NCBI RefSeq assembly: GCF_000426345.1
Contig: NZ_AUFE01000032.1
Location: 1 to 64,000 of the forward strand
Length of the DNA stretch: 64,000 nt
Direction of reading: 5' to 3'
From: Cupriavidus phytohabitans
Lineage (GTDB): Bacteria; Pseudomonadota; Gammaproteobacteria; Burkholderiales; Burkholderiaceae
Part shown: piece by piece, positions 8,915-12,923 of the stretch
Layout of the letters: each line of letters opens with the position of its first letter
How positions within the stretch are numbered: position 1 is the first letter of the stretch
The notes under the pieces: model-generated
Database searches by the model: none
Seen by the model: the letters and a program-made list of their open reading frames with translations, nothing else
Told to the model about the DNA's origin: nothing
Position numbers and translations under genes: made by a program

Positions 8915-9616
8915 ATGACCCAGCCCACATTCCGCATCGCCCCGTCCATCCTGTCCGCCGACTTCGCCCGCCTGGGCGAAGAAGTCCGCCGCGTGACCGA
9001 GGCCGGCGCCGACTGGATCCACTTCGACGTGATGGACAACCATTACGTGCCCAACCTGACCGTGGGCCCGCTGGTGTGCGAGGCGATCCGCCCCCACGTA
9101 ACCGCGCCGATCGATGTGCACCTGATGGTGCGCCCGGTGGACCGGATCATCCCGGACTTTGCCAAGGCCGGCGCCAATATCATCACCTTCCACCCGGAAG
9201 CCAGCGAACACGTCGACCGCTCGCTCGCGCTGATCCGCGATAGCGGCTGCCAGGCCGGCCTGGTGTTCAACCCGGCCACCCCGCTGCACCACCTGGACCA
9301 CGTGATGGACCGCCTGGACGTAATCCTGCTGATGTCGGTCAACCCGGGCTTCGGCGGCCAGTCGTTCATCCCCGAGACGCTGAACAAGCTGCGCGCCGTG
9401 CGCCAGCGCATCGATGACTACACTGCCCGCACCGGCCGCACCATCCTGCTGGAAGTGGACGGCGGCGTGAAGGTCGACAACATTGCCGAGATCGCCGCGG
9501 CCGGCGCCGACACCTTTGTGGCCGGCTCGGCCGTATTCGGCAAGCCGGACGCCGACGGCGGCTACCGCGGCATCATCTCGGCGCTGCGCGGCGAACTGGC
9601 CAAGGTCGGCCAATGA
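8915..9616 (+). CDS. rpe: Ribulose-phosphate 3-epimerase
   Basis: Rpe interconverts ribulose 5-phosphate and xylulose 5-phosphate in the pentose phosphate and Calvin cycles. The 233-residue TIM barrel shows [16 protein letters not shown], the metal-binding [22 protein letters not shown] and [11 protein letters not shown]. Its stop overlaps the start of gph by four bases (ATGA), so the two are translationally coupled, and both lead into the trp genes. Confidence 0.97.
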
Positions 9617-10356
9617 CCGCGGGCGTGGCACTGCGCCGCACCGACTGGAGCGGCATCGAAGGGGTGATCGTTGACCTGGACGGCACCATGGTCGATACGG
9701 CGGGCGACTTCCACGCGTCGATCAACGCCATGCTGCTGGCGCTGGGCCGCCAGCACCCCAACCTCGGGCCGGTGGCACCGATGTCCGAGCACGAGATCGT
9801 CAGCTACGTCGGCAAGGGCTCGGAAAACCTGATCCGGCGCGTGCTCGACGCGCGCTTCTCGCCGCTGCACGCCAACAGCCTCTTTGCCGATGCCTACGCG
9901 CTGTATGACCGCGAGTACATCCGCATCAATGGCCAGTTCTCGCAGGTCTACCCGGGCGTGCGCGAAGGCCTGGCGGCAATGAAGGCGGCCGGGTTGCGGC
10001 TGGCCTGCGTGACCAACAAGCCCTACAGCTTTACCGAGCCGCTGCTGGCCAAGACCGGGCTGGCGCCCTATTTCGAGCTGGTCTACGGCGGCGACGCGTT
10101 CCAGCTGCGCAAGCCGGACCCGTTCCCGCTGCTCAAGGTGGCGGAGGCGTTCAGGCTGGATCCGTCGGCGATGGCCGCCCTTGGCGACTCGGAAAACGAC
10201 GCCCAGGCAGCCCGCGCGGCCGGCATGGGCGTGCTGCTGGTGCCCTACGGCTACAACCATGGCAATCCTGTACAAGCCGTCGAAGCCGATGGTATAGTCG
10301 ACACCATTGCCCACGCCGCAGCGCTGTTCGCGGCACACCGGGCAGGTCATCGCTAG
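9613..10356 (+). CDS. gph: Phosphoglycolate phosphatase
   Basis: A HAD-superfamily phosphatase that removes phosphate from 2-phosphoglycolate. The 247-residue protein has motif [13 protein letters not shown], motif II in CVTNKP, the motif III lysine in [10 protein letters not shown] and the acidic motif [15 protein letters not shown]. It overlaps rpe by four bases. The trpE gene starts 447 bases further on, behind a leader region. Confidence 0.95.
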
Positions 10357-10400
10357 GATCGGTCTCAGGATCGATCGCGACTGAAATCCCTGAACATTCA

Positions 10401-10487
10401 ATGTTTCTCAACCGCAAACGCATCTCTTCTGGCAGTGATCGGCAGGCTTGGCCCTGGCGTCGCTGGCGCGCCTCCCAACAGGCGTAA
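10401..10487 (+). CDS. trpL: trp leader peptide
   Basis: A 28-codon frame ATG...TAA reading MFLNRKRISSGSDRQ, then A-W-P-W-R-R-W and a short tail ASQQA. Three TGG codons at 10449, 10455 and 10464 within six codons are far above chance and sit 317 bases ahead of trpE. This is the hallmark of a leader peptide whose translation senses charged tRNA-Trp. No strong ribosome site precedes the ATG, which is the main weakness. The Trp codons lie two-thirds along, as in classic attenuators. Confidence 0.72.
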   Translation: MFLNRKRISSGSDRQAWPWRRWRASQQA

Positions 10488-10532
10488 AGTGCGTTCGCGA
10501 GTCTGCTGACGCGCCCTCTACCCGAGGGCGTC
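10465..10532 (+). promoter_or_regulatory. Candidate trp attenuator: competing hairpins
   Basis: CGCCCTC (10512-10518) and GAGGGCG (10524-10530) form a 7-bp GC stem with loop TACCC. An alternative pairing joins GGCGCG (10465-10470), inside the third Trp codon region, to CGCGCC (10510-10515), which would open that stem. A small stem CGCCT/AGGCG spans the end of the leader frame. The downstream hairpin has no T run, so the termination step is not proven from sequence. Confidence 0.45.
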
Positions 10533-10803
10533 GTTACAACCGGCTGAGGGGTCAACCCCGTGCCGGGCATCCCACCCAAACCCGCCAAAAGCCAGCGTAG
10601 CTGCGATTCTCTGCTACGTTTAGCTCAAGAACGCGCCGCACGCCCTTCCCCGGCCGTGTGCAGCCTTGTCCGCAACTTGCCTGCACCACGGCCCGCCAGA
10701 CGGGGCGGGTATCGATTCGCTCCAGCCTGATTGCCGAAATGCGGCGCCGCGCCCAAACTCATCGCGCAGCGACGCCGTACAAAAGGACCGCAAGAGGACC
10801 GAC

Positions 10804-12333
10804 ATGACCGAACTGGAATTCAAATCGCTGGCCGACCAGGGCTACAACCGCATCCCGCTGATCGCCGAGGCCTTTGCCGACCTGGAAACGCCGCTGTCGC
10901 TGTACCTGAAGCTGGCGCAGTCGCAGACGCGCGGAGTCAACACCTTCCTGCTGGAATCGGTGGTCGGCGGCGAGCGCTTCGGGCGCTATTCCTTCATCGG
11001 CCTGCATGCCCGCACGCTGCTGCGCGCCTTCGGCAACCGCACCGAGGTGGTGACCGACGGCAAGGTGGTGGAAACCCACGAAGGCAATCCGCTGGACTTC
11101 ATCGCCGAGTTCGAGAGCCGCTTCAAGGTGGCGCTGCGCCCGGGCCTGCCCCGCTTCTGCGGCGGCCTGGCGGGCTACTTCGGCTACGACGCGGTGCGCT
11201 ATATCGAGAAGAAGCTCGCCAGCACGCAGAAGCCCGACGACCTGAACCTGCCCGATATCCAGCTGCTGCTGTGTGAAGAGCTGGCCGTGATCGACAACCT
11301 GTCGGGCAAGCTCTACCTGATCGTCTACGCCGACCCGACCACGCCGGAAGCCTATCCCCGCGCCCGCCAGCGCCTGCGCGAACTGCGCATGAAGCTGCGC
11401 CAGCCGGTGGACGTGCCGGTGACCAGCCCGTCGGTGCAGACCGAGGTCTACCGCGAGTTCGCCAAGGCGGACTACCTGAACGCGGTGCACAAGGCCAAGG
11501 AATACATCATGGCCGGCGACATGATGCAGGTGCAGATCGGCCAGCGCCTGATGAAGCCCTACCGCGACTCGCCGCTGTCGCTGTACCGCGCGCTGCGCTC
11601 GCTGAATCCGTCGCCGTACATGTATTTCTATAACTTCGGCGATTTCCAGGTGGTGGGCGCGTCGCCGGAAATCCTGGTGCGCCAGGAGGAACGCAAGGTC
11701 GGCACAAATGGAGAAAACGGCGGCGACACGCGCAGCGAGCACATCGTCACCATCCGCCCGCTGGCCGGCACCCGCCCGCGCGGCAATACGCCGGACAAGG
11801 ATGCCCAGCTTGCCACCGAGCTGCTGAACGATCCCAAGGAGATCGCCGAGCACGTGATGCTGATCGACCTGGCGCGCAACGATATCGGCCGCATCGCCGA
11901 GACCGGCTCGGTCAAGGTCACCGACAAGATGGTGATCGAGAAGTACTCGCACGTGCAGCATATCGTCAGCTCGGTCGAAGGCACGCTGCGTGAAGGCATG
12001 AGCAACCTCGACGTGCTGCGCGCAACCTTCCCGGCCGGCACGCTGTCGGGCGCGCCCAAGGTGCATGCGATGGAAATCATCGACGAGCTGGAGCCGCGCA
12101 AGCGCGGCATCTATGGCGGCGCGGTGGGCTACCTGTCGTTCGGCGGCGAGATGGACCTGGCCATTGCCATCCGCACCGGCATCATCAAGGACGGCAATTT
12201 GTATGTGCAGGCCGCCGCCGGCATCGTTGCCGATTCGGACCCCGAAGCCGAATGGAGGGAAACTGAAGCCAAGGCGCGCGCCGTGATCCGCGCCGCCGAG
12301 CAGGTCCAGGATGGCCTGGACTCCGACATCTGA
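10804..12333 (+). CDS. trpE: Anthranilate synthase component I
   Basis: TrpE makes anthranilate from chorismate with ammonia supplied by TrpG, the first committed step to tryptophan. The 509-residue protein has the feedback-binding LLES motif near residue 50 ([17 protein letters not shown]), NPSPYMYF, the chorismate-site [11 protein letters not shown] and [18 protein letters not shown]. The ATG at 10804 follows AGAGGAC. An in-frame upstream extension is not family-like. It heads trpE-trpG-trpD-trpC behind a candidate attenuator. Confidence 0.97.

Positions 12334-12353: not shown

Positions 12354-12923
<570 letters not shown>

Follow-up and report, generated by a model that had tools for sequence, protein, structure and literature searches.

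A conserved tryptophan-rich leader frame ahead of trpE in Cupriavidus and related families, with a Trp-codon hairpin and a missing intrinsic terminator in Cupriavidus

Here we describe a short tryptophan-rich frame directly ahead of trpE that is well supported as a Trp-sensing leader and that is kept in Cupriavidus and in related families. It lies in a stretch of 64,000 nucleotides of Cupriavidus phytohabitans (the window), at positions 10401-10487 of the forward strand. The first-pass annotation had proposed ribosome-mediated attenuation for this frame. The sensing part of that proposal stands, for a Trp leader is kept before trpE and its Trp codons lie in a hairpin, but the textbook terminator and antiterminator are absent in the window, although a terminator is present in related genera. 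Thus, with leader and Trp hairpin kept and both terminator and mutually exclusive folds absent, the window has kept the input side of an attenuator and lacks the output side as it is known. Classical attenuation at an intrinsic terminator is unsupported in the window by scan and folds. We consider it probable that the frame belongs to a cis-acting trp leader that sets the output of the trp operon by the position of a ribosome.

The frame runs from ATG to TAA over 28 codons and would encode MFLNRKRISSGSDRQAWPWRRWRASQQA. Translation and codon tables place the Trp codons at W17 (10449-10451), W19 (10455-10457) and W22 (10464-10466), within the run W17 P18 W19 R20 R21 W22 (10449-10466, forward strand), so that coordinates and codons are as originally described: 28 codons ahead of trpE with three Trp in six positions. 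The leader sits between gph, which ends at 10356, and trpE, which starts at 10804, with a spacer of 316 nt from leader stop to trpE. On the same strand, gph (9613-10356; phosphoglycolate phosphatase; TIGR01449, 201.4 bits, cut-off 180) holds a promoter-like element, and trpE (10804-12333; anthranilate synthase component I; TIGR00564, 539.2 bits, cut-off 517.7) encodes a protein 98% identical to the TrpE of Cupriavidus alkaliphilus. Family matches give the gene order rpe, gph, leader, trpE, trpD, trpC, and an open reading frame at 12354-12923 is a candidate for trpG by its position.

Clustered Trp codons directly before a trp biosynthesis operon, conserved there, are as found in attenuators. 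The cluster alone is nevertheless weak evidence because 13 of the 425 frames of 12-60 amino acids in this GC-rich window have at least three Trp in six residues (7 of 157 among the short frames started by ATG), and clustering was discarded as stand-alone evidence. As far as sequence comparison goes, the case for the leader is carried by position and conservation, and conservation is decisive.

For the trpE search, genomes were taken one per species and the best 80 loci were kept; 79 of them have upstream DNA, the other (L029) being cut with no sequence upstream. All 79 have a leader homologue before trpE, 24-28 codons long, that starts with ATG and stays open to its stop codon. Profile searches (E up to 0.01 throughout) gave matches for 154 out of 200 genomes in the window's family, for 118 of 145 in the family with Oxalobacteraceae-type leaders and, using a profile that takes in f2 peptides, for 119 of 150 in the third family, f2; these family-wide counts include weak matches (E 0.001-0.01), and adjacency to trpE was checked for part of them. 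The f2 family is probably Comamonadaceae, and trpE follows the leader in the four f2 loci checked. Within a sample of the order, 25 of 399 genomes match at E up to 0.001, including two loci (L119, L121) in which neither leader nor trpE was found. The GTDB class sample yielded matches in 13 of 274 genomes (E up to 0.01), with trpE beside the match only in the window's own genome and in G224; the other 11 loci (L088-L098) gave no trpE hit. A DNA pattern for A-W-x-W-R-R-W has five matches in the window's genome, one of them the trp leader, and paralogous leaders were rejected there, the peptide profile giving one credible copy and a next best E of 0.106.

Leader sets were cleaned before counting. 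Two inner starts (L129b, L240b) and two non-leader frames (L182, L183) were dropped before the 253-leader set, and a further inner start (L227b) and a second tandem leader (L264b) before the 251-leader set; new leaders identical to one already in the set over leader plus 60 nt were excluded. Scripted leader calling returned none for L119, L121, L279 and L280. The last two are strong homologues: in L279 (G1093) the frame shifts by one base between ATG and leader, across an A-tract, and in L280 (G1090) ACG stands in place of ATG, with a GTG two codons upstream. Six further genomes of the genus of L280 match only from profile position 2. In locus L264 (G1092:C25) tandem trp leaders lie about 230 bp apart, each with hairpin and U-tract after it.

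Three representative leaders had no match in Pfam or NCBIfam, for which 24-28 amino acids are near the limit of such searches, and Rfam, including Trp_leader, had no match in the window and three relatives, either at gathering thresholds or at E up to 5. The suspicion that annotation overlooks this leader peptide was well founded, since it is kept before trpE in 79 of 79 loci and has no curated-library match. Titles and abstract beginnings of the open literature, a scope outside which subscription attenuator surveys fall, yielded no trp leader of these bacteria, and the main text of PMC2965389 names neither trpE nor Ralstonia. The leader may have been published earlier, and we do not claim that it is unpublished.

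It had been expected that the Trp codons would stay while their flanks drift and that the other residues would be ordinary. Drift is indeed seen outside the frame, both upstream and downstream. Inside it, the codons beside the Trp codons vary about as little as these do, frequently in their third bases too, and the other residues are far from ordinary, MFLNRKR and DR-x-AWPWRRW being kept in near relatives. The third Trp is present in 76 of the 79 named trpE loci (absent in L047, L067 and L072) and in 176 of the 251 leaders of the larger set, and 66 of the 70 f2 leaders have two Trp only; to judge from these counts it is dispensable. W17 and W19 are not scorable in the larger set because that set was selected for [AGS]W.W.

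Many codons are frozen as nucleotides. GAC, CGG and CCC occur in 70/70 f2 leaders, with GGA in 67/70, and each of the same first three in 54 of 55 Burkholderia-type leaders. Cupriavidus leaders (n = 31) have CGG, CAG, CCC, CGT and CGC each in 31/31, and Oxalobacteraceae-type leaders (n = 91) have CGA in 91 and CGC in 90. A 23-base pattern with three degenerate positions had a single match in each of 11 genomes among 399 of the order, and the 23 bases were identical in all 11. Third bases frozen in this way indicate that selection acts on RNA or DNA. Elsewhere the residue is kept while its third base is free: the Arg after WxW is present in 70/70 f2 leaders (CGT 36, CGC 24, CGA 7, CGG 3), and Oxalobacteraceae-type leaders have mostly Leu between their Trp (CTA 30, CTG 25, CTT 24, CTC 4). 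Residues kept with free third bases beside sites that are frozen make both RNA and peptide look constrained, which in turn argues for translation of the frame.

The same pattern bears on two explanations in which the peptide matters as such. The leader peptide, or a short leader RNA, might act in trans, and this might be the main reason for its retention in Cupriavidus. The leader is conserved there despite loss of the U-tract, the residue-level constraint with free third bases (f2 Arg in 70/70 with four codons, Oxalobacteraceae-type Leu as CTN) would suit a peptide, and trans functions of peTrpL and rnTrpL are reported for S. meliloti in excerpts of PMC7298713. A free peptide would however have no need of the many frozen synonymous sites, and the leader precedes trpE in the loci checked, which leads us to regard a trans role as the main reason for retention as quite unlikely. 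In the second explanation A-W-P-W-R would itself be a Trp-responsive stalling motif, a TnaC-like nascent-chain arrest in place of stalling at hungry codons. It would account for W-x-W-R being kept where the third Trp is lost (75 of 251 leaders lack it, and 66 of 70 in f2 have only two Trp) and for Arg and Leu kept with free third bases, but the large set had been selected for W-x-W, so that this support comes mainly from the 79 trpE loci and from the Arg. Two to four Trp codons are enough for hungry-codon stalling and the frozen nucleotides suggest a constraint on RNA; we find arrest by the motif itself very unlikely.

The only promoter-like site detected in 9600-11400 is a promoter predicted by consensus scan on the forward strand at 10269-10298, with a -35 TGTACA (10269-10274) and an extended -10 TGGTATAGT. 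Its hexamer TATAGT (10293-10298) falls within the last codons of gph, and the transcript would start near 10305. The element has the form T(A/G)T(A/G/T)CA - spacer - GGTATA(G/A)T, always inside the gph 3' end, and contains an ATA codon for Ile, which is unusual in such GC-rich genes. It is kept in 114 of the 116 loci of Cupriavidus, Burkholderia type and Oxalobacteraceae type long enough to test (30/30, 36/37 and 48/49, respectively), at 49-197 nt from the leader, and was found in 1/4 Ralstonia-type and 0/30 f2 loci. In 68 of 70 f2 leaders a TANANT box ends 6-10 nt upstream of the ATG, preceded by TG in 63; the box occurs at that place in 1/55 Burkholderia-type, 1/91 Oxalobacteraceae-type, 0/31 Cupriavidus and 0/4 Ralstonia-type leaders, and a control position 20 nt further upstream in f2 gave 0 boxes. 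By this layout f2 leaders (e.g. L117, L118, L120 and L087) are apparently leaderless genes. The S. meliloti trpL RNA starts at its ATG, according to excerpts of PMC7298713, and leaderless genes are reported in B. cenocepacia and C. metallidurans (PMC4603805, PMC7563307), in papers whose main texts mention neither trpE nor attenuation.

A Shine-Dalgarno match of at least 4 nt was found before none of the 80 leaders, the window's included, and before trpE in 64 of the 80. This lack in 80/80 is what would be expected if the frame were a relic or a pure structured RNA, untranslated and kept as an RNA or DNA element only, as are the frozen synonymous sites, the out-of-frame ATG of L279 and the ACG for ATG of L280. 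Such an origin is nonetheless highly improbable, given that ATG, open frame and stop are kept in 79/79 named loci, that several codons keep their amino acid with a free third base, and that the -10-like box 6-10 nt before the f2 ATG is the layout of a leaderless gene.

In the window and in Cupriavidus the Trp codons lie within an RNA hairpin (region 1:2), in which codons 11-15 pair with codons 18-22 (10433-10465, forward strand) in single RNA folds and in the consensus fold. Consensus folding, on at most 40 random distinct rows per group, returned a Trp-codon hairpin for f2, Burkholderia-type and Cupriavidus leaders. The f2 and Burkholderia-type block folds as CCGGGG-AGCCUGG-CCCUGG, Cupriavidus has a hairpin of its own, and the consensus hairpin of Oxalobacteraceae-type leaders is weak.

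Downstream of the leader, scanning of 9600-11400 for an intrinsic terminator (GC hairpin and U-tract) found none, and a T6 tract follows 0/31 Cupriavidus leaders. Nor did the window yield an exclusive antiterminator/terminator pair, its sole nearby hairpin forming in all the ribosome states folded (none, W17, W19, W22 and stop; thermodynamic folds with an assumed footprint and no kinetics). This is a GC-rich hairpin, CGCCCTC/GAGGGCG, at 10512-10530 of the forward strand, with no U-tract after it. Among 13 distinct close rows, the window's included, 98.9% of its cells are paired, and the two-helix structure has two pairs changed on both sides against a shuffled mean of 1.0 (35/500 as high); the sequence at this site differs in the more distant Cupriavidus rows shown. 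Attenuation might be classical in Cupriavidus too if this hairpin terminated without a U-tract and were switched by the leader ribosome, as its compensatory changes among the 13 close rows and the hairpin with U-tract at the corresponding place in sister genera would allow. But no T run follows it, it is present in all five ribosome states and the more distant rows differ at 10512-10530, and we hold this explanation to be unlikely.

A proposed closing helix would join CGCAAACGCAU in codons 5-8 (10413-10423, forward strand; RNAalifold and single-sequence fold) to GUGCGUUCGCG just past the stop codon (10489-10499, forward strand; alignments). The downstream strand is invariant in an alignment of close relatives (14 of the 31 Cupriavidus rows) and nearly invariant in 28 Cupriavidus. 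Both strands are invariant in the close relatives, with one A-C mismatch, hence there is no covariation within Cupriavidus, and the case for the helix is made by where its strands lie and by their complementarity. Set against shuffled downstream sequence, the longest uninterrupted run is significant at the 0.05 level in only 1 of 28 Cupriavidus (p 0.015-0.575); the four Ralstonia-type leaders, whose runs directly behind the stop codon measure 8-10 bp, give p 0-0.05. In the folds, with the footprint assumed, the helix is lost when a ribosome stands at the stop codon and retained when it stands at W17, W19 or W22.

Further along the Cupriavidus spacer, alignment shows a GAACGCGCC block (10629-10637, forward strand), found in 30/30 loci searched for it, whose GAACG (10629) is invariant in 28 Cupriavidus aligned without selecting for the block. 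A candidate pairing would join 10489-10499 with the GAACG block, each side being invariant or nearly so. A second spacer hairpin, GGCCGUGUGCAG/CUGCACCACGGCC (10652-10693, forward strand; 10652-10663 with 10681-10693), lies 110 nt before trpE and shows modest covariation in 31 Cupriavidus rows: 92.5% of its cells are paired, and both sides have changed in 4 pairs (2.4 on average in shuffles, 58/500 as high) and in 16 cells (6.8 in shuffles, 0/500 as high). A third, 10692-10697 with 10704-10709, was unsupported and was rejected. GCGTTTG occurs immediately past the leader stop in the spacers of three Ralstonia-type loci (L026, L027 and L028) and recurs some 195-237 nt later, with an AAACGC in the interval, so that alternative pairings are possible. 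The maximum C/G in 78 nt has a median of 2.14 in the spacers of 28 Cupriavidus against 1.51 in the trpE 5' end; for Burkholderia-type leaders it is 2.06 in the spacer against 2.00 in their own trpE, and since the measure fails to set these spacers apart from trpE, the Rho part of the mechanism considered below is weak.

Sister genera provide a different picture, with an intrinsic terminator as the probable output. A U-tract comes after a hairpin that shows compensatory changes in Burkholderia, Paraburkholderia, Trinickia and Pandoraea, and in Burkholderia/Pandoraea and in Oxalobacteraceae the leader precedes hairpin and U-tract. A T6 tract lies downstream of 34 of 55 Burkholderia-type leaders (TTTCTT in 17 more) and 67 of 91 Oxalobacteraceae-type leaders, and is lacking in 69 of 70 f2 leaders. 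In the four genera named, RNAalifold, unprompted, pairs leader nt 12-21 with the U-tract. Each of these pairs is broken in at most 2 of 49 Burkholderia-type rows: nt 12 (codon 4, third base) is paired in every row with the first base past the U-tract (CG 32, UA 15, UG 2), nt 14 pairs as AU 44, GC 3, GU 2 and nt 15 as AU 31, GC 17, GU 1. Of 54 Burkholderia-type rows, L297-L300 and L304 were excluded from the alignment and its counts, since a long insertion or a different spacer disturbed it; in L297-L300 leader nt 21 is mismatched, CGC standing opposite CCG. Pairs at nt 10 and nt 11 were discarded, being paired in only 22/49 and 16/49.

Cells with both sides changed number 35 against 12.3 in shuffles, which ignore relatedness (0/500 as high), and sliding the helix by one to three columns lowers pairing from 88.8% to 47-62%. 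Shuffles were not exceeded by the number of pairs with both sides changed (3 against 2.9, 355/500 as high) or of further pair types (8 against 8.2, 477/500 as high). Counting exactly six T (Burkholderia-type 34/55 leaders, 23 distinct; Oxalobacteraceae-type 60/91, 51 distinct), nt 12 pairs in 23/23 distinct Burkholderia-type leaders where 17.5 are expected and in 49/51 distinct Oxalobacteraceae-type leaders where 44.0 are expected, with 0/1000 shuffles as high in both; in the latter group 26/51 are paired at nt 20, where shuffles average 16.1, and 22/51 at nt 21, where they average 21.2. Lys AAA at codon 5 goes with T6 in Oxalobacteraceae-type (60/13 vs 7/11) and Burkholderia-type leaders (29/0 vs 5/21), both uncorrected for relatedness. 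Tree tests covered 75 of 119 leaders, those with enough trpE, of which 73 have both traits. The trpE DNA tree gives 7 independent nt 12 contrasts, with a change of the partner in the same direction in 4-5 and in the opposite direction in 0 (sign test p 0.06-0.125), and the protein tree gives 3, with 1-3 the same way and 0 opposite (p 0.25-1). With so few contrasts and these p values, phylogeny-corrected support for the U-tract helix is suggestive only. Where the U-tract is interrupted, Pandoraea-type TTTCTT faces AAG, and L291 and L288 have C opposite G; L059, against the pattern, has C opposite A. Helix and terminator hairpin coexist in 19 of 20 folds (four leaders in five ribosome states; the exception is L080 with the ribosome at stop), a coexistence that would speak against an antiterminator and for a helix that accompanies the terminator or closes off the leader start.

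Our preferred reading, a cis-acting leader that senses Trp through ribosome position, would work as follows. The transcript would start in the end of gph, and a ribosome would then read the 28-codon frame. Scarce charged tRNA-Trp would hold it at W17, W19 or W22, and plentiful charged tRNA-Trp would let it reach the stop codon; its position would determine the fold of the RNA that separates leader from trpE, and thereby the amount of trp operon made. The sign of the response to Trp is one that we infer. We propose a ribosome position set by Trp because it is the simplest reason for Trp codons before trpE in three families. The last step in Cupriavidus would not be a standard intrinsic terminator. 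The output would most likely be premature termination by other means, probably Rho in the 316-nt C-rich spacer, or a spacer fold, which are favoured because the spacer is C-rich and because a ribosome at the stop would cover 10489-10499. There the switch point would lie, the covering ribosome preventing the closing helix with 10413-10423.

More tentatively, these leaders may form a distinct Burkholderiales trp leader family in which the first codons capture the terminator U-tract and in which the output changed where the U-tract was lost. The capturing helix, some 10 bp long and with compensatory changes, would then reach one base past the U-tract and, once RNA polymerase has passed, would seal the leader start, leaving the pioneer ribosome as sole reader. 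The U-tract would have been lost in Cupriavidus, Ralstonia and f2; in Cupriavidus and Ralstonia the capture strand would have shifted to the bases just past the stop codon, and the leader would have taken on another output (Rho, spacer folding or a trans role).

The leader thus offers a candidate for the control of trp synthesis in several groups for which no leader came out of the curated libraries searched: Cupriavidus, Burkholderia, Pandoraea, Oxalobacteraceae and another large family. It also offers a natural series, one leader being kept while U-tract, promoter position and number of Trp codons vary, and this series makes testable what a leader regulates without a terminator. Trp flux may be of practical interest in Cupriavidus necator, which serves as a production host.

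Compared with the enterobacterial trp attenuator, E. coli trpL (Rfam Trp_leader), the leader is alike in being a short Trp-rich frame before trpE with its Trp codons in a hairpin, and sister genera of Cupriavidus share the hairpin and U-tract. Unlike E. coli trpL, it has no Rfam match and no Shine-Dalgarno sequence, Cupriavidus has no U-tract, and in the sister genera early leader codons pair with the U-tract. TnaC, an arrest peptide that senses Trp and controls breakdown genes and the access of Rho after arrest, is also short with Trp and Pro, whereas the leader described here stands before biosynthesis genes and has several Trp codons. The rhizobial trpL, source of rnTrpL and peTrpL in S. 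meliloti, likewise precedes trpE(G), and its RNA starts at the ATG (excerpts of PMC7298713); the f2 leaders have a -10-like box 6-10 nt before theirs. As far as those excerpts go, the leader differs from S. meliloti trpL in encoding another peptide and, in Cupriavidus, in having its promoter-like element about 100 nt upstream, inside gph.
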